Source: Caldifarciminota bacterium (GTDB lineage Bacteria > Hydrothermota > Tepidihabitantia > B3-TA06). Taken from it: a DNA stretch of 64,000 nucleotides. Positions 33,162 through 47,409 of this stretch are shown here, piece after piece (the first letter of the stretch is position 1; every line of letters begins with the position of its first letter). The notes under the pieces are model-generated. The model was not told the origin of the DNA and did not search any database. It was given only the letters and a program-made list of their open reading frames with translations. The position numbers and the translations under genes are program-made. The stretch is taken from assembly GCA_016934635.1 (NCBI GenBank), contig JAFGSK010000024.1, forward strand, positions 1 through 64,000. Direction: 5' to 3'.

Positions 33162-36100
33162 CTATCGCCACTCGCCGATCAGTACAAAAGATGCCCAAAA
33201 GAAAGGGTGGGAGTATTTTTCGCTGCCAATCAGCTTCTGCTGGGCTCGACGCAGCGCCTCTGAGGTAGAATGATTCTTCAGCTGTTCGTAAAAGGTAACC
33301 ATCAGCAGCTTGGTAGATTCGTCGGCCACCGGCCACAGGGTAGCGACAATAGAAGGGGCGGACTCCATTGCGAGTGAAAAAGCCTTGGCAATGCTTTCAA
33401 ACTCCAAACCTGGTTGACTGCCGCCTACCGCGGTCTCGCATGCAGAAAGTGTAATCAGTCTTACCTTATCCCACGATTGATTGGTTATCTCAGAGACCGT
33501 CCAGTGTCCGTCTGTCGATTGCGTTCTGGCCAGATAGATATACGATTCCCAAGGGTCCTCGGGATTCAGTCTGCAATGGGTTGCCAGGTGCAGGACCTCA
33601 CTGTGGGCCGCGTTGCGCTGCACCTCGAATTCAGTTGCCTGTGAGCGAACGAGCGTAGTCGAATTAGGATACACAGTCTTTATTGAGGCCACTTCCTCCT
33701 CGGCGCTTGGAAGCTTAGCACCGGTAGGATTCCCGACCAGAAGCAAGGCATCCGGATGCCAGTCGTTCTCCTCACTGCGGCGATAAATGCACTGGAAGAG
33801 TTCGGTGGAGGTCAAAACGTTCCAGTTGTATCGTTCAGACAGGAAGACTGAGCTATCCCCTACAGTATCCATCAATGCGCCCCAGGGTACGTAGTAAAGG
33901 TTACCCGAAGGTATGAAGGTTAAAACCTTTACCGCTTCAAGTTCCTGCTCAAACGGCTCGATGAGGTAGGAGTAAAGCTCGGCGAGCGCATTCTTTAAAG
34001 GAGCAACCTCATTTTTGTAGAAATAACTGCCGTCGTCTCCCCACTTCCACCCAAAGAGCCTGTCTTCCGCCACAAGACGCCTGGCATTCTCTTCGCTGCA
34101 GAACCTGCGGCAGCGCACAACCAGGCTGTCCAAAACGACACGTCCGACCGAGACCGAGCGCACCTCGTATCCTTCACTGCAGACAAGGAATAGATAGAGT
34201 CGACTAGCCCCGGCGTAGGTCATCAAGAGTTTCTGGCCTGGGGGTAACTCGGATTGGAGAACACCGATATCGGCCGCATTCACCCTGACCAGGGATGAGT
34301 AATCAGGATCTGCCTGCACCTGGGCTGCTACCTCGAAGTACTCCGCCTTGGTTCGGGCAAGATTGGATGTTATTCTTTCGACCGTCTCCTGGCTGCGCAG
34401 GGAATCCGGTTTGGTATACTCCTCGACAAGTTGAGCCTCGAGTTCCTCAACCTGCTTTGCCAGTTCCTGGGAACCGGCGACCTTTTCCTGCATCCCAGGC
34501 ACCCCGATGGCAACCTCGCCGCTCTGGGTAAGAGCAGTTTTCAATGCCTGGGACTTTGACCGCTCCAGATAGGCAAAGGCCTGCTCAGGCTTTCCCATCC
34601 TCATAAGGATCGCGAAGATGGCTTCGTATCGGTCGCTTACCGTCTCGGTGTAAGCAGCCCGTAACTCCTCGGAGGTTATCTCCCCTCGCGACTGCTCGAA
34701 TATGTCGATGGATCGACGCAGGTAGTAAAGGGATTCATCAGTTTTTCCCAGCGCGTCGTAGGTCAGACCGATACGGCTGCAGCTTGAGCCTACGTTGGGA
34801 TGATCTTGCCCCAGGCTTCCCTCCCAAATCGTCAAAGCGCGCTTGTAGGATTCCAAAGCCTTGTCGTACTTTCCCAGGCTTTCATAGGCGTTACCGATGT
34901 TGTTGTAGGTGTAGGCAAGACTGGGATCGAGTGAATCAAGCCTAGTGAGTTTGAGTGCAATGGCCTTATTGTAGTACTGCAGGGCCGAGGGGTAATTACC
35001 TTGATTAGCATAGATTACTCCGATGTTGTTGTAAACTGAAGCCAGCGCCGGATCATTAGGGCCAAGCAAAGCCAGCCAGATATCCGTGGCCTTCTTGTAG
35101 TATTCTAGAGCTTCGGTATTAGAACCAAGCCTGGATAAGACGTTGCCAAGGTTGTTGTAACGCGCGGCCACGTCAGGATGATTAGGACCCAGCACATCGA
35201 TATCGATAGCTAATGCCTGCTTGAAGTTTTCCAGCGCCTTCGGGTAGTCACCCAGGGCAAGGTAAACTCTACCGATGTCGTTGTAGTCGGAAGCCAGCTC
35301 CGAGCAGGATTCCTTGTTTGAAGCCAATCTGAGGGAAAGAGCCTTATTGAAATTCTTTAAAGCCGACTGGTAGGATGCAAAGTTGAGATAAAGGCTGCCG
35401 ATGTTTGCGTAGTGCACGGCAATATCGGGGTGATTCGGTCCTAAACAGTGCTCACTGATTTCGAGTGCAGTCTCATATGATGCCAAGGCCTCATTGCATC
35501 TTCCAAGCGCCTTATACACATCGCCGAGTATCACGTAGTTGGTAGCGAGGTCAGGATGCTGGGACCCGAGTAATTTGGTACGAATGGATAAAGCGCGTTT
35601 CTGATCATCCAAGGCCTCCTCATACGCCTCGAGTTTGTAATGCATGTAACCGATATCGGTATAACTCTTGGCAATCCTGGTGTGTTCGTACCCGAAGGCA
35701 TTCAGTTCAATCTCAAGGGCCTTCTCGTGGTTATCCAATGCCGGTTGATATGACCCCTGTTTGTAATGGATGTATCCTATATTTGCGTAACTCGCAGCTA
35801 CCATGGTATCGGCAGGCCCGAGTGTTTTCAGCTGTAAAGCGAGAGCCTTCTCAGCGCTGGTAAGGGCCTCTTCATACTTCCCTAACTCGCATTGAATTAG
35901 GCTGATGTTAGTATAGGTTGTCGCTATCAATGGATCGTCTTCGTCAAGGACCTTGAGTCGGATGAGGAGCGAACGACGATAGTTGTCCAACGCCTCCGTG
36001 TAATCCTTAATGTTCCAATAAAGATACCCGATCTCGCTGTAGATGCTTGCAACCGACACATTATCCTGTCCCAGAAGCTTCTGGTATATCCCCAGCATCT

Positions 36101-36410
36101 TCTCGAAATCGGTTATCGCCTGGCTGCAGGAACCGTTCTCCTTGGCTTTAGTCCCTGTCCGGTGGAAAAGCTTGGCTGCATCACCTAAGACCTTGCTTCC
36201 TTCTTGGGTTTGACCCTGCTCATTCAGTTTATTCCCCAGGGTATACAAGCTGTCTGCAACCGTGCGCAGGGAATCGAGGTCCGCATCCTGAGCGGTTAAG
36301 GATTTGGCCGAGACAAACAATGCCAAACCCAAAAGAAGAGTCGAAACCGGCGCGCCGAAGCTGTTACACTTGACTGAATACTGTCTGCGTTTCGGGCCGT
36401 TGGTGCACAT
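33162..36410 (-). CDS. Exported TPR-CHAT protease-like protein
   Basis: The 1082-residue protein has a signal peptide (VSTLLLGLALFVSAKSLTAQ), about twelve TPR repeats of 42-44 residues in the kinesin-light-chain style (YANIGYIHYKQGSYQPALDNHEKALEIE and similar, about 60-600), a helical spacer and a C-terminal CHAT domain (about 730-1082). The caspase-like dyad is present: His945 in LHLATHC and Cys991 in LSACET, followed by the WPVADESTKLLM block. CHAT proteins are caspase-fold peptidases, often in signalling or immunity, but are usually cytoplasmic; this one is exported. ATG 36410 has AAGGAGG 6 bases upstream. Its target is unknown. Confidence 0.88.
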   Translation of the reverse strand: MCTNGPKRRQYSVKCNSFGAPVSTLLLGLALFVSAKSLTAQDADLDSLRTVADSLYTLGNKLNEQGQTQEGSKVLGDAAKLFHRTGTKAKENGSCSQAITDFEKMLGIYQKLLGQDNVSVASIYSEIGYLYWNIKDYTEALDNYRRSLLIRLKVLDEDDPLIATTYTNISLIQCELGKYEEALTSAEKALALQLKTLGPADTMVAASYANIGYIHYKQGSYQPALDNHEKALEIELNAFGYEHTRIAKSYTDIGYMHYKLEAYEEALDDQKRALSIRTKLLGSQHPDLATNYVILGDVYKALGRCNEALASYETALEISEHCLGPNHPDIAVHYANIGSLYLNFASYQSALKNFNKALSLRLASNKESCSELASDYNDIGRVYLALGDYPKALENFKQALAIDIDVLGPNHPDVAARYNNLGNVLSRLGSNTEALEYYKKATDIWLALLGPNDPALASVYNNIGVIYANQGNYPSALQYYNKAIALKLTRLDSLDPSLAYTYNNIGNAYESLGKYDKALESYKRALTIWEGSLGQDHPNVGSSCSRIGLTYDALGKTDESLYYLRRSIDIFEQSRGEITSEELRAAYTETVSDRYEAIFAILMRMGKPEQAFAYLERSKSQALKTALTQSGEVAIGVPGMQEKVAGSQELAKQVEELEAQLVEEYTKPDSLRSQETVERITSNLARTKAEYFEVAAQVQADPDYSSLVRVNAADIGVLQSELPPGQKLLMTYAGASRLYLFLVCSEGYEVRSVSVGRVVLDSLVVRCRRFCSEENARRLVAEDRLFGWKWGDDGSYFYKNEVAPLKNALAELYSYLIEPFEQELEAVKVLTFIPSGNLYYVPWGALMDTVGDSSVFLSERYNWNVLTSTELFQCIYRRSEENDWHPDALLLVGNPTGAKLPSAEEEVASIKTVYPNSTTLVRSQATEFEVQRNAAHSEVLHLATHCRLNPEDPWESYIYLARTQSTDGHWTVSEITNQSWDKVRLITLSACETAVGGSQPGLEFESIAKAFSLAMESAPSIVATLWPVADESTKLLMVTFYEQLKNHSTSEALRRAQQKLIGSEKYSHPFFWASFVLIGEWR

Positions 36411-36569
36411 CGAGTTCCTCCTTGGCAAGATATAGATTAAACTCGATGTCTAGTCTAATCTCCCCACTGTTATTGTCAACTGAAGGTTTATCGGAGGAAC
36501 TGGGAGAACGCAGTACGTTAACGCACCGCGTTATCGAACTCCGTTCGTCCACCCTTCCCAATATCAAAA

Positions 36570-36637: not shown

Positions 36638-37672
36638 CTAGTAGGCAATGTAGCAATTGGGAAGCTCTTTATGAAGCTTCTTAATACCGTCGGTCGAGAT
36701 CCCAGTGCCTTTAATGTTAAGGCTGCGAAGATTGCTCATCTTCGAAAGCCAGTCCACCGAAGCGTCGGTTATCGAGGTTGCACTTATGTCAAGCCTGGTT
36801 ACCTTGGTCATTGTAGAGATCGTTTCGATACCTTTATCGGTAATCGCCGCACCGTGGAGATTGAGTTCGGTGAGACTGGATATTCCGGCAAGGGCCTTGA
36901 GTCCGTCGTCTGAAACCTTCAAGGGACGGCCTCGCAGATCTGTAACCCCGGTCTTGGTCCGGAAAAGATTCAGTGTACGCAGTTTTTCCATGCCTTCAAG
37001 GTAAGCCACTCCCTCGTCGGTGATCTCAGTGCTCTCAAGATCGAGGGTACGCAGATTTTCCAGTTTCGAGATGTGGGCCAGACCTTCATCTGAGATGTCG
37101 GTGTATGCCAGATTCAACGCTCTAAGATCCTTTAGTGAAGCAAGGTATGCGAGGTCGTCGTCATCCACCTTGGTGTAAGCCAGATCCAATGCCTTGATAT
37201 TATCCATGCCTTCCAGTTCCTTGAGGTCTCCTTCTTCAAGTCCAACCACACTCACGGCAACAACGTTGGGAAGCTTCTTTAACTCGCCGAGTTCGGCTCC
37301 ATCGGCCTGCACGGTCAAGATCTTGCCCTTGTCTTCGATGTCGTTAAAGGAATGTTCGACCAGATCGATGCCTATAACGTTTCCATTGACTTTGAACTCG
37401 CCCATCACGTTCTCGTAATCGATACTGTCTTCTCCGTTCCAGGGCAGGTAGTAGGGCGTAAGATATACAAAATCCTCGCCCGCTTCCCAGTTTGTAACGT
37501 CCAGTCTGGTTTTATAGTACAGGCCTTCTTCGGTGACTGCCAGCATCTTGTATTCCTCGTCGCCTCTCAGGGTAAATTCCCCCATAGAGAACGGAAAGCT
37601 CAAAGGCTGTGCCGCCAGCGGCGATAAAGCGACTACGCCCACCGCTACTGCGATAAGAACCTTTTTGGTCAT
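36638..37672 (-). CDS. Exported leucine-rich-repeat protein
   Basis: The 344-residue protein has a signal peptide (VLIAVAVGVVALSPLAAQ), an N-terminal beta region of about 110 residues and then about eight LRRs of 24 residues of the cysteine-free bacterial type (LRALNLAYTDISDEGLAHISKLEN and similar). It likely binds a protein outside the cytoplasm. GAGGAGG precedes ATG 37672; the upstream M at 37702 has no site. It lies upstream of the CHAT gene on the same strand but with a terminator between. Confidence 0.85.
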   Translation of the reverse strand: MTKKVLIAVAVGVVALSPLAAQPLSFPFSMGEFTLRGDEEYKMLAVTEEGLYYKTRLDVTNWEAGEDFVYLTPYYLPWNGEDSIDYENVMGEFKVNGNVIGIDLVEHSFNDIEDKGKILTVQADGAELGELKKLPNVVAVSVVGLEEGDLKELEGMDNIKALDLAYTKVDDDDLAYLASLKDLRALNLAYTDISDEGLAHISKLENLRTLDLESTEITDEGVAYLEGMEKLRTLNLFRTKTGVTDLRGRPLKVSDDGLKALAGISSLTELNLHGAAITDKGIETISTMTKVTRLDISATSITDASVDWLSKMSNLRSLNIKGTGISTDGIKKLHKELPNCYIAY

Positions 37673-37827
37673 CTTTGACCTCCTCGCTTTAACTACTTTC
37701 ATTAATTAATTCAATGGAACCGCATACCTTCGGTTCCACCCTCAGGTTGCAATCACTCATTTGCAACATAGCTTAACCATAGAAATTTTTGGCCCGTTGT
37801 CAAGCCCTTAACCTTGCACATAAAACC

Positions 37828-37855: not shown

Positions 37856-37896
37856 TATCGTGTGGCTCATGAATCTCAGCACACCAGGAGGAAACC

Positions 37897-40800
37897 TTGC
37901 GTAACGTGATCCCGCGTTTCATACACGAGAAATACGAAGAGGGTATCTTTGAAGGCAGCTTCAATGCGGCCACTATGTTCGTAGACATCTCAGGCTTTAC
38001 GAGCATAACCGAGTCCTTGATGCGCCGGGGAACCGAAGGGGCCGAACGCATCTCGTCCATGTTAAACGAAATATTCAATCCGATCATCTACGAGGTATAC
38101 AGACATGCCGGGTTTATAACAGGTTTTGCGGGCGATGCTTTTACCGCGGTGTACCCTGACGCGAACCCCTTCAAGCCTTTGTTTACCGCCCTGGCCATCC
38201 AGGAGAGATTCGCCAGCAGAAAAGAGGAATCAAGCCAGGGCCAGCTTTCGGTAAAGATCGGGTTATCGTACGGGGAAGTTCTGTGGGGTATCGTAGGCGG
38301 CGAGGAAAGGAAGGCTTATTACTTCAGAGGAGAACCCGTGGCCGGTTGCGCGAAAGCGATCGAGGATTCACAGCCTGGACAGATTGTGCTTGACGATAAT
38401 CTATACAACTCCCTGACAATGACCTCACCTGATCCTGCAAGGATCGTAATACCCCCTCCTCAAGAAGAAATATCCTCACAAACGTCGATTATCAGTCAAT
38501 CGGTGGTTGAAAAATTCGTGCCCAGAAAGGTTCTCCTGTCAAAACGTACCGGGGAATTCCGCGAAGTTGCATCGGTGTTCATTTCATTCAGGGAGATCCC
38601 GAATTTCTTTGAGATGCCGCAGTTCGTCGAGACGGTTTTAGAGAAGTCTTACCAGTATGGCGGATACTTGAACAGCCTGAACTTCGAGGACAAGGGGCCC
38701 AGCCTTCTTGTCCTTTTCGGCGCACCTGTGTCTCATGAGAACAACGTCAAAAGGGCTGCCGACTTCGCACTCGACGTTCGCAAGGAGTTCCGTTTCGTGG
38801 TAAGGACGGGAATTACCGCAGGTGCGGTATATGCAGGAGCGGTTGGTAGCCCCAAAAGATCCACTTATACTGCACTGGGCGACGCAGTGAATCTTGCAGC
38901 ACGTTTCATGACCGCCTCCGATTGGGGAGAGATCTGGATTTCGTCCGAAGTCGCACGAAGACTCGGAAATTCTTACGCCACGGAAGCCAAGGGTTCTCAC
39001 AGGTTTAAAGGGAAGTCGGAACCTTGTGAGGTCTTCGGGCTCCTCGACCCCCAGATACGACCCGCAGGTGAACTCTTTACAGGCGAGATGGTCGGGCGCG
39101 ATAAGGAATTGACCCAGGCCAAGGACTTTACACATGCACTCGACCAAGGTCGTTTCGGAGGGGTTATTAACATCTACGGCGAGGCGGGAATCGGCAAGTC
39201 AAGGCTTCTTTTTGAGCTGGCGGGCGAGCTTGGGAAAAAGGTTCAAACGTGCGTATTAAAAACCGATGAGGTGCTTCGCAAGGGTCTGAATCCCTTCATA
39301 TATTATTTTAAAGGCTTCTTTAACCAGGCCGACGTTAACACCACGGACGTTAACAAGGAAAACTTCGAGACCGCCTGGCGCGACCTCCTGTGTCGCCTCG
39401 AAGAAGCCCCTGACAACGAAAGGGTAGAACCTGTAATCGCCGAGTTGAGACGTACGAAGTCCATATTCGGTGGACTCCTGGGTCTGAGATGGCCGGGTTC
39501 CCTTTTTGAAAAGCTCGACGCTCTAGGCCGTTTTGATAACACCGTGTATGCGATAAAGGAGTTCTTCAAGGGAATTTCGCTTGCAAAACCTGTAATGATT
39601 ATACTGGAGGATGCGCAGTGGCTCGATGCCGACTCCTCCCAGGTTTTTAAGGTTCTGACCCGGAACCTTGACGATTACCCGATCGTAATATACACCACAT
39701 CGCGTTTTGCAGATGACGGCTCCAAACCCAGGATCGAACTCGAAGTCCCTCAGCAAGAGATCGTGATCGATTACCTCGATCAAGATTCCGTGGCAACCTT
39801 TGTCTGTAACCAACTGGGTGCAGAAGCCGACGACGGGCTTCTCTCGTTCATTAAAGAAAGAACCGAGGGAAACCCCTTCTTCGCCGAGCAGTTTTGCTTA
39901 TACCTTAAGGAAAACGAACTCATAGAGCGCAGCAACGGAAAATACAGCAAGGTAAAGGGAAAGGCCGAGATCCCGGGCGGCATCAAATCAATCCTGGTCT
40001 CAAGGCTTGACAGGCTGTCTGCAGGATTAAAGGATACGGTGCAGACCGCGTCGGTTCTGGGCCGGGAATTCGACGTAGCCATACTTGCCGCGATGCTTGC
40101 AAGGCGCAGGCTGGAGGTACTTCTGGACGAAGGCGAAACCGAGGGCATCTGGACCGCGCTTACCGAGATAATATACATATTCAAGCATGCCCTGATGAGG
40201 GATGCCGCCTACGGGATGCAGCTTCGCAAGAGACTGAATGACCTTCATAAGCTTGCAGCCGAGGCCATGGAGCGTTTCTATGCCGCAGATCCGACCCATT
40301 ACGCGGACATCGCGTTCCACTATGAGCAGGCCGAGACCAACCTACAGGCAAAGGTCTATCTCGAGCGCGCCGCAGACTACGCCCGGGAGACATTCAAGAA
40401 CGAAGAGGCGATAGACCTTTACAACAGGTTACTCGCCTTGCTGGACGATCGAGGAAAGGCGATTTCCACACAATCGAACAAAGCGAGTATACTCCAGCTA
40501 ATAGGAAGATGGCAGGAAGCCGAGACGATCTACCGTGACAACCTCAAGAAGGCGGAAGAAGCCGGAAACAGGATTCTTCAGGCGGACAACGCGAACAGCC
40601 TCGGACTCCTTTTACGCGGCAAGGGGGCGTTCGATGAGGCCGGCGAGTTTTTTTCCATGTCCCGTGAAATCTATACAGATATGGGAAACAAGCTTCGCGC
40701 CGCTACTGTTACCGGAAACATAGGCGGTATAGGCTTCATGAAAGGGGACTTGAGGGATGCACTGGAATGTTTCCAGGAGTGGCTGGCCGCCGGAGAGGAG

Positions 40801-41793
40801 TTTGAGGATAAGAAGGAGATATCTAAATCCTTGAGCAACATAGGTATCATCCACGCAATGGTCGGCGAGCGAGAGAAGGCTTTGGAATATTTCGAACGAA
40901 GCCTTGCGATTACCGAAGAACTGGACGATCCTCAAGGACTCGCTGCAACCCTGGGAAACATGGCAATCGTTTTCAGTAACACAGGTCAATACGACAAAGC
41001 TCTCGAGATGCAGCAAAGGGCTTTAGAGATTGCCAAGGAGATGGGTAACAAGCAAGGAATAAGTACGACCATGAGCGGAATAGGGTTCATTTACGAAGCA
41101 CGTCAGGACTATCCAAAGGCTCTGAAATACTACCGGAGTAATCTTGAGATCAACCAGGAGTTGGGCAATAAGCGAAGCCTCGGTATAGCTTACGGCAACA
41201 TCGGCAATGTCTATGCACGGATGGAATCATATGATAAAGCGCTGGAGTACTACACAAATCAGCTGGAGATAGCTCGAAGCCTTGCTGATGAAGAAACCAT
41301 GTGCAAGGCCCTCGGCAATTCAAGCATCGCCTACAAGGAGCTTGGGAATTTCGAGAAGGCCAGGGACCACAACGACAAGGCTGTAGAGATTGCCCGCCAA
41401 CGCAACCTCAAATCCCATCTGGCGGTTTACCTCTGCGAGTCGGCAGGATTGAGCTTCCGAGAGGGTGACATCCAAGCCGCGGCTACTGCCAACTGCGAGG
41501 CGCTTAAGCTGGCCGAGGAAACACATAACAACGATGTTGCCTTCACATCGAGGTTATTCAATGCACAGATTGCAGCAAAGGAAGACAAAAATAAAGCAGT
41601 GTTAACCCTAGAGGACTTATTGAAGTCTGAGCTTCAAGACTGGCAGCGCGCCGCTTTGTACCACGAGCTTTACAAGCTTACCGGCAAGGATGAGCACAGA
41701 AAATCCGCCCTTGATTTGTATAGGAAACTCCACGAGAAAACCTCCCGCCCCAGCTACGCAAAGAAGATAGCCGAACTTAAAGGCAGCCCCTGA
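37897..41793 (+). CDS. Soluble-adenylyl-cyclase-like protein: two cyclase domains, ATPase, TPRs
   Basis: The 1298-residue cytoplasmic protein starts at TTG 37897, 5 bases after AGGAGG. It has two class III cyclase domains. The first (about 20-180) holds both metal-binding Asp (D30 in FVDISGF and D80 in GFAGDAF). The second (about 222-370) lacks them but has the candidate adenine Lys (K266 in FEDKGP) and the transition-state Asn332/Arg336 in GDAVNLAARF. A P-loop ATPase follows with Walker A GEAGIGKS (428-435) and Walker B VMIILEDAQW. At least eight TPRs occupy the C-terminal third. Only one complete active site can form across the two domains, as in animal soluble adenylyl cyclase. It probably makes cAMP in response to a ligand or partner; bicarbonate response is possible but unproven. 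Confidence 0.87.
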   Translation: MRNVIPRFIHEKYEEGIFEGSFNAATMFVDISGFTSITESLMRRGTEGAERISSMLNEIFNPIIYEVYRHAGFITGFAGDAFTAVYPDANPFKPLFTALAIQERFASRKEESSQGQLSVKIGLSYGEVLWGIVGGEERKAYYFRGEPVAGCAKAIEDSQPGQIVLDDNLYNSLTMTSPDPARIVIPPPQEEISSQTSIISQSVVEKFVPRKVLLSKRTGEFREVASVFISFREIPNFFEMPQFVETVLEKSYQYGGYLNSLNFEDKGPSLLVLFGAPVSHENNVKRAADFALDVRKEFRFVVRTGITAGAVYAGAVGSPKRSTYTALGDAVNLAARFMTASDWGEIWISSEVARRLGNSYATEAKGSHRFKGKSEPCEVFGLLDPQIRPAGELFTGEMVGRDKELTQAKDFTHALDQGRFGGVINIYGEAGIGKSRLLFELAGELGKKVQTCVLKTDEVLRKGLNPFIYYFKGFFNQADVNTTDVNKENFETAWRDLLCRLEEAPDNERVEPVIAELRRTKSIFGGLLGLRWPGSLFEKLDALGRFDNTVYAIKEFFKGISLAKPVMIILEDAQWLDADSSQVFKVLTRNLDDYPIVIYTTSRFADDGSKPRIELEVPQQEIVIDYLDQDSVATFVCNQLGAEADDGLLSFIKERTEGNPFFAEQFCLYLKENELIERSNGKYSKVKGKAEIPGGIKSILVSRLDRLSAGLKDTVQTASVLGREFDVAILAAMLARRRLEVLLDEGETEGIWTALTEIIYIFKHALMRDAAYGMQLRKRLNDLHKLAAEAMERFYAADPTHYADIAFHYEQAETNLQAKVYLERAADYARETFKNEEAIDLYNRLLALLDDRGKAISTQSNKASILQLIGRWQEAETIYRDNLKKAEEAGNRILQADNANSLGLLLRGKGAFDEAGEFFSMSREIYTDMGNKLRAATVTGNIGGIGFMKGDLRDALECFQEWLAAGEEFEDKKEISKSLSNIGIIHAMVGEREKALEYFERSLAITEELDDPQGLAATLGNMAIVFSNTGQYDKALEMQQRALEIAKEMGNKQGISTTMSGIGFIYEARQDYPKALKYYRSNLEINQELGNKRSLGIAYGNIGNVYARMESYDKALEYYTNQLEIARSLADEETMCKALGNSSIAYKELGNFEKARDHNDKAVEIARQRNLKSHLAVYLCESAGLSFREGDIQAAATANCEALKLAEETHNNDVAFTSRLFNAQIAAKEDKNKAVLTLEDLLKSELQDWQRAALYHELYKLTGKDEHRKSALDLYRKLHEKTSRPSYAKKIAELKGSP

Positions 41794-43343: not shown

Positions 43344-45437
43344 CTAAATTTTGTGCTCGAACTGGAGCTTGTACAGACCGTAGTACACGCCCTTCTTTTT
43401 CATGAGTACCTTATGTGTGCCTTCCTCCACGATGCTCCCGTGGTCGAGGACTATGATGCGGTCCGCGTCGCGCACGGTCGAGAGCCGGTGAGCGATGATG
43501 AGTGCGGTACGGCCCTCAAGGAGCTTGTGAATTGCGTCCTGGATAAGAGCCTCGGTCTTGGTGTCGACGGACGAAGTTGCCTCGTCGAGAATAAGTATTG
43601 ATGGATTGATGGCCAGGGCGCGCGCAAACGCCAGGAGCTGACGCTCACCTACCGATAAGTTTACGCCCCGTTCTTGAATAGGAGCCTTGTAGCCTTCGGG
43701 TAATTTGGAAATGAACTTGTCGGCGTTGGTTACCATTGCCGCGGCCTCGACTCGTTCGTGGGATATGTCGGAGCGCAGCCTGATGTTGGTCTCGATGTCC
43801 CCGATAAAAAGAAACACGTCCTGCATCACGATACCGACACGGGAACGAAGTTCCTTCTTGTCCAGCCCCCTAGCATCGTGTCCGTCAACAAGTATCTTGC
43901 CTTTCTGAATCTCATAGAATCTGCAAAGGGTATTGATTATCGAAGTCTTGCCCGCCCCGGTTGCACCAACGAACGCAACACGTTCACCGGGCTTTACCTT
44001 GAAGTTGATGTCTTTTAGTACCCAATCATCGTCGTTATAAGCAAACCATACGTCCTGGAATTCAATCTCGCCTTCAATCTTACTGGGCAGCTTGCGCCCC
44101 TCATAGGCTTCCTCTTTCTCGTCTGCAAGCATGAATATCCGTTCGCCCGACGCCATCGATTCCTGAAGCAACTGGAACTTCTCTGCGATGTCGCGGATAG
44201 GCTGGAAGAATATCTCCACGAATGCCAGGAACGCGGCAAGGTGCCCTATGGTCACGTCGGTCGGTATGATCTTGATCCATAAACCACCGAACCACAAAAT
44301 TGCGGCTACAGCGGCGAAGGCAAGGAAGTCTATGAGCGGTCGAAAAACCGCGAACACCATGATCTGCCCGTAGTGAGCCCTGAAGTAACTCTCGTTGATA
44401 TCGTTGAAATCTGAAAGCCTCTTACGCTCCCTCGTGAATATCTGTACCACCTTGATACCGGACAGATTTTCGGCAAGAAATGCATTGATGCGTGCTATCC
44501 TGACTCTGACCTTACGGAATGCCGTGCGCAGCATCCTGCGGAATATAACGGTTACGATGGCCATAGGCGGAACCACCGCAAAAAGCACGAGCGCCATACG
44601 CCAGTTCTGGAACAAAGGCAGGTAGATGATAAGCCCTATCAGAAGGAAGAAGTCGTAGAAGAAGCTCGTTACAATATCCGAGAAGAACTGGTTGAGCTTT
44701 TCAACGTCGTTTGTGGTTCGGGTAACGAGGCGTCCCACCGGGTTGTGGTCGAAGAAACGGACCGATAATCGCTGAAGATGTGCGAAGATCTTGACCCTGA
44801 GTCGGTGCATAGCCCGCTGCCCAGCAAAGAACATCATCAACTGCTGCCCGAAACCGAATATCAACTGACCGAGCGCGAGGAACACGAAAAACAGGGAGAA
44901 GCGAACAAGACCTTTCAAGTCAGCGTCGCGCAGCGGTAGCAATATGCTCTTCTGGAAGGTCTCACCTTTCTTGTTGTACTTGCTGAAGTCACCGTAAGGA
45001 ATGAGGTATTTCCCGTCCTGGAGCTCGGAATAACGTTCGAGAGTCTCAGGAGATAAATACTCTTCTGCCTTCGATTGATCGAGCAGATAGTATTGCACTT
45101 TGTCTACCATCCTGGATTCCGGATCTTCTATTCCCTTGAGATTTCTGAGGGATGAATAAATGATTGCGTATGTTGAGTCGTTTACCTGTAAGACGTAATC
45201 GGAGTACTGGCTTGCTTCTTGTGCTGACAGCTCTATCATCCGGTAAACCTTAAACAGATAATCGTCGATTGCCATCTGGCGAATAGTGGGCATAACAAGG
45301 CGAGTGCCGGCAAGGATTAGCGCCATCAGCCCCCCCAGAACCATCATCCACCAGTCTTTCTTAACGAATCCGAAGAGACGACCTACGATCCGGGAGTCGT
45401 ATATCTTGCCTAGCTTTTCTTCCTCGTGAGAAAACAT
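43344..45437 (-). CDS. ABC exporter subunit with complete ATPase site
   Basis: The 697-residue protein has six membrane segments and an ABC domain (about 455-697). Walker A is GATGAGKTS, the signature LSVGERQ, Walker B ILILDEATSSVD with the catalytic Glu, and the switch His is in IIAHRLSTV. A long soluble insert of about 120 residues sits between the first two membrane segments (SAQEASQYSDYVLQV to LLPLRDADLKG). ATG 45437 follows AGAGG; the upstream frame to 45521 has no site and overlaps the probable promoter. It pairs with the degenerate subunit at 45643 to form a heterodimer of the TM287/288 or BmrCD type, exporting drugs, lipids or peptides. Confidence 0.9.
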   Translation of the reverse strand: MFSHEEEKLGKIYDSRIVGRLFGFVKKDWWMMVLGGLMALILAGTRLVMPTIRQMAIDDYLFKVYRMIELSAQEASQYSDYVLQVNDSTYAIIYSSLRNLKGIEDPESRMVDKVQYYLLDQSKAEEYLSPETLERYSELQDGKYLIPYGDFSKYNKKGETFQKSILLPLRDADLKGLVRFSLFFVFLALGQLIFGFGQQLMMFFAGQRAMHRLRVKIFAHLQRLSVRFFDHNPVGRLVTRTTNDVEKLNQFFSDIVTSFFYDFFLLIGLIIYLPLFQNWRMALVLFAVVPPMAIVTVIFRRMLRTAFRKVRVRIARINAFLAENLSGIKVVQIFTRERKRLSDFNDINESYFRAHYGQIMVFAVFRPLIDFLAFAAVAAILWFGGLWIKIIPTDVTIGHLAAFLAFVEIFFQPIRDIAEKFQLLQESMASGERIFMLADEKEEAYEGRKLPSKIEGEIEFQDVWFAYNDDDWVLKDINFKVKPGERVAFVGATGAGKTSIINTLCRFYEIQKGKILVDGHDARGLDKKELRSRVGIVMQDVFLFIGDIETNIRLRSDISHERVEAAAMVTNADKFISKLPEGYKAPIQERGVNLSVGERQLLAFARALAINPSILILDEATSSVDTKTEALIQDAIHKLLEGRTALIIAHRLSTVRDADRIIVLDHGSIVEEGTHKVLMKKKGVYYGLYKLQFEHKI

Positions 45438-45587
45438 CAATTGCCTCTTTCCGGTGTTACATGTAGTGTTATAAGTTGGCGTAGCAGAATGAGGTAATCT
45501 TGTGATATAAATGTAACGCATGGCCGGTAGATTGCGTCAATAATACTGAGAGTGCGTATTGTTCGATCGATAAGCAGCCGAAGACTG

Positions 45588-45642
45588 CCTGCGATCTTTG
45601 ACCCTACGGGTCGCAAGCGTATTGCGAAGTAATAAAGGAGCA
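45588..45642 (+). repeat. GCGATCTTT...AAGGAGCATT element
   Basis: Sequence runs TGCGATCTTTGACC, a short CCC-TA-GGG palindrome, then CAAGCGTATTGCGAAGTA and AAAGGAGCATT. It sits directly after the stop of the upstream ABC gene. Related copies are at 43262, 56962 and 59267. Confidence 0.55.
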
Positions 45643-47409
45643 TTATTTAACTCCCTGCAGTCTTGCGAACAATGCGTAAAGCCCGTCTTTTTTAATAAGC
45701 TCCTCGTGGGTTCCGCGTTCCGCTATCCTGCCCTCGTCCATGACCAGGATCTCGTCGGCGAAGGCAAGGCTGCGGGGTCGTGCGGAAATGATTATTACCG
45801 CACGCTCGCGCATTATCCCTTTTAGGGCGGTGAGTATCTCGATCTCTGTATCGGCATCTACCGCGGAGAGGGCATCGTCGAGGATGAGTATTTTGGGTTC
45901 CGTAAGGACAGCGCGGGCTATAGTAAGCCGCTGCTTCTGCCCGCCCGAAACGGTGACTCCGCGCTCACCTAAAACGGTGTCATAAGCTTGCGGGAACTCC
46001 GTAATCTCGTCATGGATGCCTGCTATCCTGGCAGCCTCCTCGACCTCCCCAGTGGTGTATTCGCGCTTTAGTCCGAACGCTATGTTTTCCTTCACCGTCT
46101 GCGAGAACAAAAACGTATCCTGGGGAACCATTCCTATAGAGCTTCTGAGAACCTCGAGTGGAATCGTTCTTATGTCGTGACCGTCTACCGTAATTGTACC
46201 CTGTGGGGCCTCGTAAAGCCTCTGGATGAGATTCACCAGGGTTGACTTGCCCGAACCAAGGGTGCCTATGATGCCAAGTATCTTCCCGGGATAGAGCTTG
46301 AAGCTCACGTTCTTCAAAGCAGGATGCGGCATCTCCGGGTAATAAAAGGTCAGTTTCTTGAAGGAAATCTTGCCTTCAATACTCGCAAGGTTCAAGGTTT
46401 TGCCTGTATCCTTGATCTCCGGTTTGGTTTCAAACAGTCTGTTGAGCCGCCCCATTGCCGCGGCACCTGCCTGGAGCATGTTCATTAACCAGCCGATAGC
46501 CATCATGGGCCACAGGATGACGTTGATGTATTGAGGCAAGGCTATGAAGGAACCGATGGTAAGGTCTCCTAATATCACCTCCCGACCGCCGAGCAGGAGG
46601 ATGAGAAACATCGATATGCTCGCCAGAAAACCCACCAGCGGGAACATGATACCCCATATCTTGAAGAGATCGATATTCTTGTCTACATAATCCCTGCTTA
46701 CGCTTTTAAACTCTCGGGTTTCACCGTCTTCCTGAACGTAGGCCTTCACAACCCTGATTCCCGAAAGGTTCTCGGTAACGCGTGCCATCATCGAGGAGAA
46801 CGCCTCCCGAACAGCGCGCCAGCGTGATCGAAGTACCCGTGAAAATCTGCCGACGAAAACCAGAATCACTATCAGGGGAATCAGTGTAAAAAGGGTCAAC
46901 TTTGCAGTAACAGGGAACTCCAGGAATATCATTCCGACGATCGCAGCCACGCCCTGGAACACGATATCCACGACGATGATCGGACCGAAGGTTATCGAGC
47001 GCCGTATGTGCTCCACATCCTCGGTGGAGTGCGCCATCAGGTCACCGACCTGACGCTTGTCATAGAACGAGAATGATAAGGACTGCAGGTGGTCGAAAAG
47101 GTTCAGGCGAAGGTCGGTAATGACCCTGACCCCGGTTCCGGAAAGCCACCTGCGCCAGAAGTACCGCCCGACTGCGATAAGGAGCCCGATTACGAGGTAG
47201 ATACCGACGTTGACGGCTACATATCCGAGGGATACGTCAGGGGAAAGGCTGTTTATGGCATCGGCAAGGAACTTGATCAGGAGAACCTGACCGATATCCA
47301 CTATTGCAAGGAAGATGAATCCGCCGATTATCTTAGCCCAATGCCCCTTGAGGTAGGGCAGTATGGTTTTAAAGGAGCGGATCCCCTCGTTGGATTTATC
47401 GCGCCGCAT
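45643..47409 (-). CDS. ABC exporter subunit with degenerate ATPase site
   Basis: The 588-residue protein has six membrane segments and an ABC domain (about 350-588). Walker A is GTLGSGKST and the signature VSGGQKQR. The Walker B catalytic Glu is Asp (ILILDDALSAVD), and the switch His is replaced (IIISARPRSL). These are the hallmarks of the non-catalytic site in heterodimeric exporters. Its partner is the next gene, 205 bases downstream. An AGGGTTC segment before ATG 47409 is a poor ribosome-binding site. Confidence 0.9.
   Translation of the reverse strand: MRRDKSNEGIRSFKTILPYLKGHWAKIIGGFIFLAIVDIGQVLLIKFLADAINSLSPDVSLGYVAVNVGIYLVIGLLIAVGRYFWRRWLSGTGVRVITDLRLNLFDHLQSLSFSFYDKRQVGDLMAHSTEDVEHIRRSITFGPIIVVDIVFQGVAAIVGMIFLEFPVTAKLTLFTLIPLIVILVFVGRFSRVLRSRWRAVREAFSSMMARVTENLSGIRVVKAYVQEDGETREFKSVSRDYVDKNIDLFKIWGIMFPLVGFLASISMFLILLLGGREVILGDLTIGSFIALPQYINVILWPMMAIGWLMNMLQAGAAAMGRLNRLFETKPEIKDTGKTLNLASIEGKISFKKLTFYYPEMPHPALKNVSFKLYPGKILGIIGTLGSGKSTLVNLIQRLYEAPQGTITVDGHDIRTIPLEVLRSSIGMVPQDTFLFSQTVKENIAFGLKREYTTGEVEEAARIAGIHDEITEFPQAYDTVLGERGVTVSGGQKQRLTIARAVLTEPKILILDDALSAVDADTEIEILTALKGIMRERAVIIISARPRSLAFADEILVMDEGRIAERGTHEELIKKDGLYALFARLQGVK

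Follow-up and report, generated by a model that had tools for sequence, protein, structure and literature searches.

What does the gene at positions 37897..41793 (+) of the window, the 64,000-nucleotide stretch of DNA from a Caldifarciminota bacterium that was analysed here, encode, and how far does its resemblance to the soluble adenylyl cyclase (sAC) of mammals, ADCY10, extend to descent, catalysis and regulation? An earlier note on this DNA had described a protein with the architecture of ADCY10, suggested that it may bear on the origin of that enzyme and act as a bicarbonate sensor, and proposed a structure-based comparison with ADCY10 and a phylogeny of the cyclase domains.

The open reading frame codes for 1298 amino acids and has homologues along its full length. 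By direct reading of the sequence, a ribosome binding site, AGGAGG (37886..37891, +), is located 5 nt upstream of a TTG start. The Pfam model Guanylate_cyc matched the protein twice (2.1e-21), and the two class III cyclase domains were placed at residues 17-171 for C1 (37945..38409, +; phmmer against C1 of ADCY10), which holds both metal-binding Asp residues, and at residues 219-384 for C2 (38551..39048, +; Pfam and phmmer), which holds a Thr, an Asn and an Arg of the active site. These are followed by a STAND-type AAA_16 NTPase at residues 398-597 (39088..39687, +; Pfam 8.6e-15) and a TPR region at approximately residues 827-1214 (40375..41538, +), as delimited by Pfam and NCBIfam spans, with TPR_12 at 4e-62. 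The NTPase contains a Walker A motif, GEAGIGKS, at residues 428-435 and a Walker B motif of the hydrophobic-ED type, MIILED, at residues 567-572; TSR at 601 and GNP at 658 are found downstream, just past the AAA_16 span, and all four features by which STAND NTPases are recognized are present. The combination of two cyclase domains, a P-loop ATPase and TPRs that had been read from the letters is thus borne out by Pfam, and D30, D80, K266, N332 and R336 had been numbered correctly. The domain layout is not a product of chance, since comparison with an orthologue from the same genus points to purifying selection (dN 0.22 and dS 2.1 over 453 codons, with dS near saturation), and full-length homologues were also found elsewhere in the phylum.

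The likeness to ADCY10 is seen in searches of single sequences as well as in the domain tree. When the first 390 residues were searched against PDB chains, human ADCY10 was the best match (1.2e-20), with C1 aligned to C1 and C2 to C2. Used alone, C1 also retrieved ADCY10 as its best match (1.4e-13, the next family being at 1e-4), and C2 was nearer to bacterial single-domain cyclases than to ADCY10. The structure-based comparison pointed in the same direction on a low-confidence model: an AlphaFold prediction from a two-row alignment was poor (pLDDT 57, pTM 0.44), and the first 14 PDB matches in a fold search with it were all human sAC and spanned both domains, but this evidence carries small weight because the TM score was only about 0.35. 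The tree included 113 domains, among them human C1 and C2, 48 bacterial C1 domains, 48 bacterial C2 domains and 15 single-domain cyclases, with the domains of transmembrane adenylyl cyclases left out. All C1 domains formed one group (99/84) and all C2 domains another (100/99), apart from the 15 single-domain cyclases, and human C1 was placed inside the bacterial C1 group and human C2 inside the bacterial C2 group. The division into C1 and C2 therefore appears to be common to animals and bacteria, and the ADCY10-like architecture proposed in the earlier note is upheld by the phylogeny. Judged by these comparisons, the 1298-aa protein is a true homologue of ADCY10 and a cyclase of the sAC/ADCY10 type. 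As far as the tree indicates, it does not stand close to ADCY10 among the bacterial members of the family: human C1 was positioned outside the 22-member C1 clade (100/99) to which the protein belongs, and the pairing of human C2 with the C2 domain from Ensifer (98/93) needs to be treated with caution because both rows have an unusual composition.

The active site was compared with human ADCY10 by alignment, taking the roles of the human residues from published work (PMC12867704, Table 1; PMC12250328). Human D47, D99, K144, T405, N412 and R416 are kept as D30, D80, K120, T325, N332 and R336, respectively. The two metal-binding residues, D30 (37984..37986, +; role in PMC12867704) and D80 (38134..38136, +), are located in C1, and T325, N332 and R336 (38869..38904, +; also recovered in a motif check) in C2. 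The same arrangement was observed across the bacterial tandem proteins, where both metal Asp residues are present in C1 of 48/48 and none occupies the D47 position of C2, while C2 carries the catalytic Asn in 47/48 and Arg or Lys at the Arg416 position in 48/48. With both Asp residues in C1 and the Asn and Arg in C2, the two domains therefore form one complementary active site, as had been suggested for this protein and as now holds over the whole set of 48.

The adenine-binding lysine is a different matter. K266 had been put forward as its candidate, an assignment that has to be withdrawn: D265-K266-G267 (38689..38697, +) corresponds to the loop of human FDKG 338-341, K266 aligns with K340, and the position of the adenine lysine, K334, is occupied by S260 (38674..38676, +). 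The loops are of equal length, and since the residue count to the FG turn is the same in the human and the 1298-aa protein, K266 is ruled out in this role. Among the bacterial C2 domains the adenine lysine is present in 29/48 and lost in 19/48, for which reason we regard K334 as a catalytic detail of animal sAC and did not use it as a criterion of descent. In an 11-member C2 clade that includes the 1298-aa protein (96/80), it has been lost from every member and replaced by S, G, L, T or M, and both metal Asp residues, the Thr, Asn and Arg and the DK of the loop are invariant. The loss of this one lysine from an otherwise intact set of catalytic residues is, at the level of sequence, the most unusual feature of the protein. 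Two other tandem cyclases in the same genome keep the adenine lysine, but the one on contig 25 (L011) has Lys in place of Arg416 and the one on contig 29 (L012) has Ile in place of Asn412.

Because the adenine lysine is missing, the activity and base choice of the 1298-aa protein are less than certain, and it could be argued that the subfamily makes a different cyclic nucleotide or uses several NTPs as substrates. Such an altered substrate would be consistent with the replacement of the lysine in 11/11 members against an invariant background, and the Pycsar cyclase models of PADLOC match both C1 and C2. However, the equivalent of Thr405 is kept as T325, K334 of the human enzyme contacts the base only via water (PMC12867704), and the Pycsar match reflects general class III homology, with no Pycsar effector among the neighbours (PADLOC on the two upstream genes, Pfam on four neighbours). 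We consider this explanation unlikely, and see a similarly low chance that the lysine was lost once in the ancestor of the subfamily, that selection for another base or a less strict choice of substrate has preserved the remainder of the active site and that the lysine of the DKG loop contacts the base instead. A role in Pycsar defence was set aside, as the homology is weak and of a general kind only.

A second question is whether the protein senses bicarbonate, CO2 or pH like its mammalian counterpart. Bicarbonate is bound in human sAC by K95 and R176 (PMC12867704, PMC12250328), and both are replaced by neutral residues here, K95 by G76 (38122..38124, +) and the bicarbonate switch R176 by A152 (38350..38352, +). 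Arg was found at the R176 position in 0/48 bacterial tandem proteins and Lys at the K95 position in 8/48. In animal sACs with neutral residues at these sites the HCO3- response is abolished, although some of these enzymes respond to pH instead, and the direct pH control in fish and sea urchin sAC does not depend on having both K95 and R176 (PMC12867704); some control by pH is conceivable for the bacterial protein too. A lysine, K153, adjoins the R176 position in the 1298-aa protein, and the class IIIb Thr, which has been described as a predictor of regulation by bicarbonate among sAC-like cyclases (PMC3383692), is present as T325. Since the K95 and R176 positions are neutral here and such substitutions abolish the response in animals, the bicarbonate sensor envisaged in the earlier note is unsupported in its human form, and we think it quite improbable that the protein is a bicarbonate or CO2/pH sensor of the mammalian kind. 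The C1/C2 division of human sAC thus appears to be shared with bacteria and its bicarbonate site is not, which fits the view that control by bicarbonate is a special case and not a general property of the family. The idea that the cyclase pair is degenerate and that its sole role in the STAND-TPR protein is to bind nucleotide as a regulator, which the loss of the adenine lysine could suggest, is very improbable given that the remaining catalytic residues are invariant in the subfamily and that the gene is under purifying selection.

We favor the explanation that the gene encodes a cytosolic sAC-type nucleotidyl cyclase that is switched by its STAND module, makes cAMP as its most likely product and is not a human-type bicarbonate sensor, and we consider this probable. 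C1 and C2 would pair within the chain to form a single active site, to which C1 would supply the two metal Asp residues and C2 Thr325, Asn332 and Arg336, leaving a mirror site that, as the sequence shows, is devoid of its catalytic residues. The AAA_16/STAND NTPase and the TPR array would together serve as the sensor. The TPRs may bind a ligand, for which a protein or a metabolite is the likeliest candidate, whereupon the NTPase would change its nucleotide state and free the cyclase pair from inhibition. This model builds on STAND proteins generally and on the autoinhibition of human sAC in its full-length form, which has lower activity than the truncated one and in which a STAND P-loop and an autoinhibitory region have been predicted (PMC12802110). 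By this analogy, sensing of a metabolite or protein via the STAND-TPR part is plausible. The genome also encodes two cNMP-binding proteins, one of 159 aa and a CRP-like one of 215 aa with a phosphate-cassette-like stretch (FFGEMAVLDGSPRNADA), and we infer a link to the cyclase in which these would read the cAMP signal.

In the comparison of neighbourhoods across the genomes of the phylum, no single neighbouring gene points to the cyclase signal. Upstream are a divergent LRR-repeat gene (36638..37702, -; Pfam, neighbourhood comparison) and a TPR-CHAT gene with caspase-like His/Cys motifs (33162..36428, -; Pfam, motifs and paralogues), both with a signal-peptide-like start and both retained beside the orthologue from the same genus. 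Of the four tandem cyclases that the genome encodes, two have a TPR-CHAT gene within about 5 kb: the 1298-aa protein, with the TPR-CHAT gene at 33162-36428, and the paralogue on contig 52, which is followed by the one at L064:9180-11588. The genome contains seven CHAT genes. Duplication of the TPR-CHAT gene and the cyclase as one pair is not supported, because the CHAT protein on contig 52 is nearer to that on contig 61 than to the one at 33162-36428. Phosphofructokinase, glycosyltransferase-like and acetate/butyrate-kinase-family genes adjoin a related tandem cyclase in four genomes (L052, L054, L056, L060), and in three others (L053, L055, L059) a related tandem cyclase has genes for a histidine kinase and a sigma-54 response regulator upstream of it. 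Two paired ABC exporter genes (43344-47409) were observed near the cyclase gene, and such a pair is also present close to a homologue (L019:1940-5733), in a different order and orientation; the shared proximity may be due to chance. The neighbours of the cyclase differ between lineages, and a conserved operon was set aside as a clue to function.

Relatives of the 1298-aa protein were identified in 36/147 genomes of the phylum (match at 1e-30), three more tandem proteins are encoded on contigs 52, 25 and 29 of the same genome, and others reside on plasmids of Leptospira and Ensifer. The sAC-like architecture is not new, in that bacterial relatives are known and common, and the protein is ordinary for its kind. 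Of the suggested relevance for the origin of ADCY10, the homology is real, but a special bearing is weakened because the family is widespread in bacteria, with bacterial sACs described in 2004, and because human C1 is placed outside the C1 clade of the protein. What our analysis adds is an extensive collection of sAC-type enzymes from bacteria of an uncultured phylum.

Full-length mammalian ADCY10 shares with the 1298-aa protein an intramolecular C1-C2 pair with one complementary active site, the F(E)DKG loop of C2, which has the same length in both, and a P-loop STAND NTPase followed by a long C-terminal part, which in human ADCY10 contains TPR. It differs in K95, R176 and the adenine lysine K334, in place of which the bacterial protein has G76, A152 and S260, and in the position of human C1 outside the C1 clade of the latter. 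Single-domain class III cyclase-AAA-TPR proteins, such as those on contigs 50, 18 and 35 of the same genome, likewise combine a cyclase with AAA_16, but have one cyclase domain each; the contig 50 and contig 18 proteins seem self-contained and are therefore presumably homodimers. Bacterial sACs with a P-loop domain are already mentioned in the literature (PMC6660944, citing Kobayashi 2004; PMC3085406), and from the bicarbonate-regulated sAC-like cyclases of Kobayashi, Buck and Levin (2004), as summarized in these later articles, the 1298-aa protein is set apart by its lack of the human bicarbonate residues, a distinction made by description and not by sequence. Also close in kind are LBBP_RS18155 of Leptospira borgpetersenii (WP_002741124.1), in which TPR were also found, and an open reading frame on a plasmid of Ensifer adhaerens: both have tandem C1-C2 domains with AAA_16, the DKG loop and no adenine lysine, but differ in sequence, with 24-26% identity to the 1298-aa protein over the cyclase pair.
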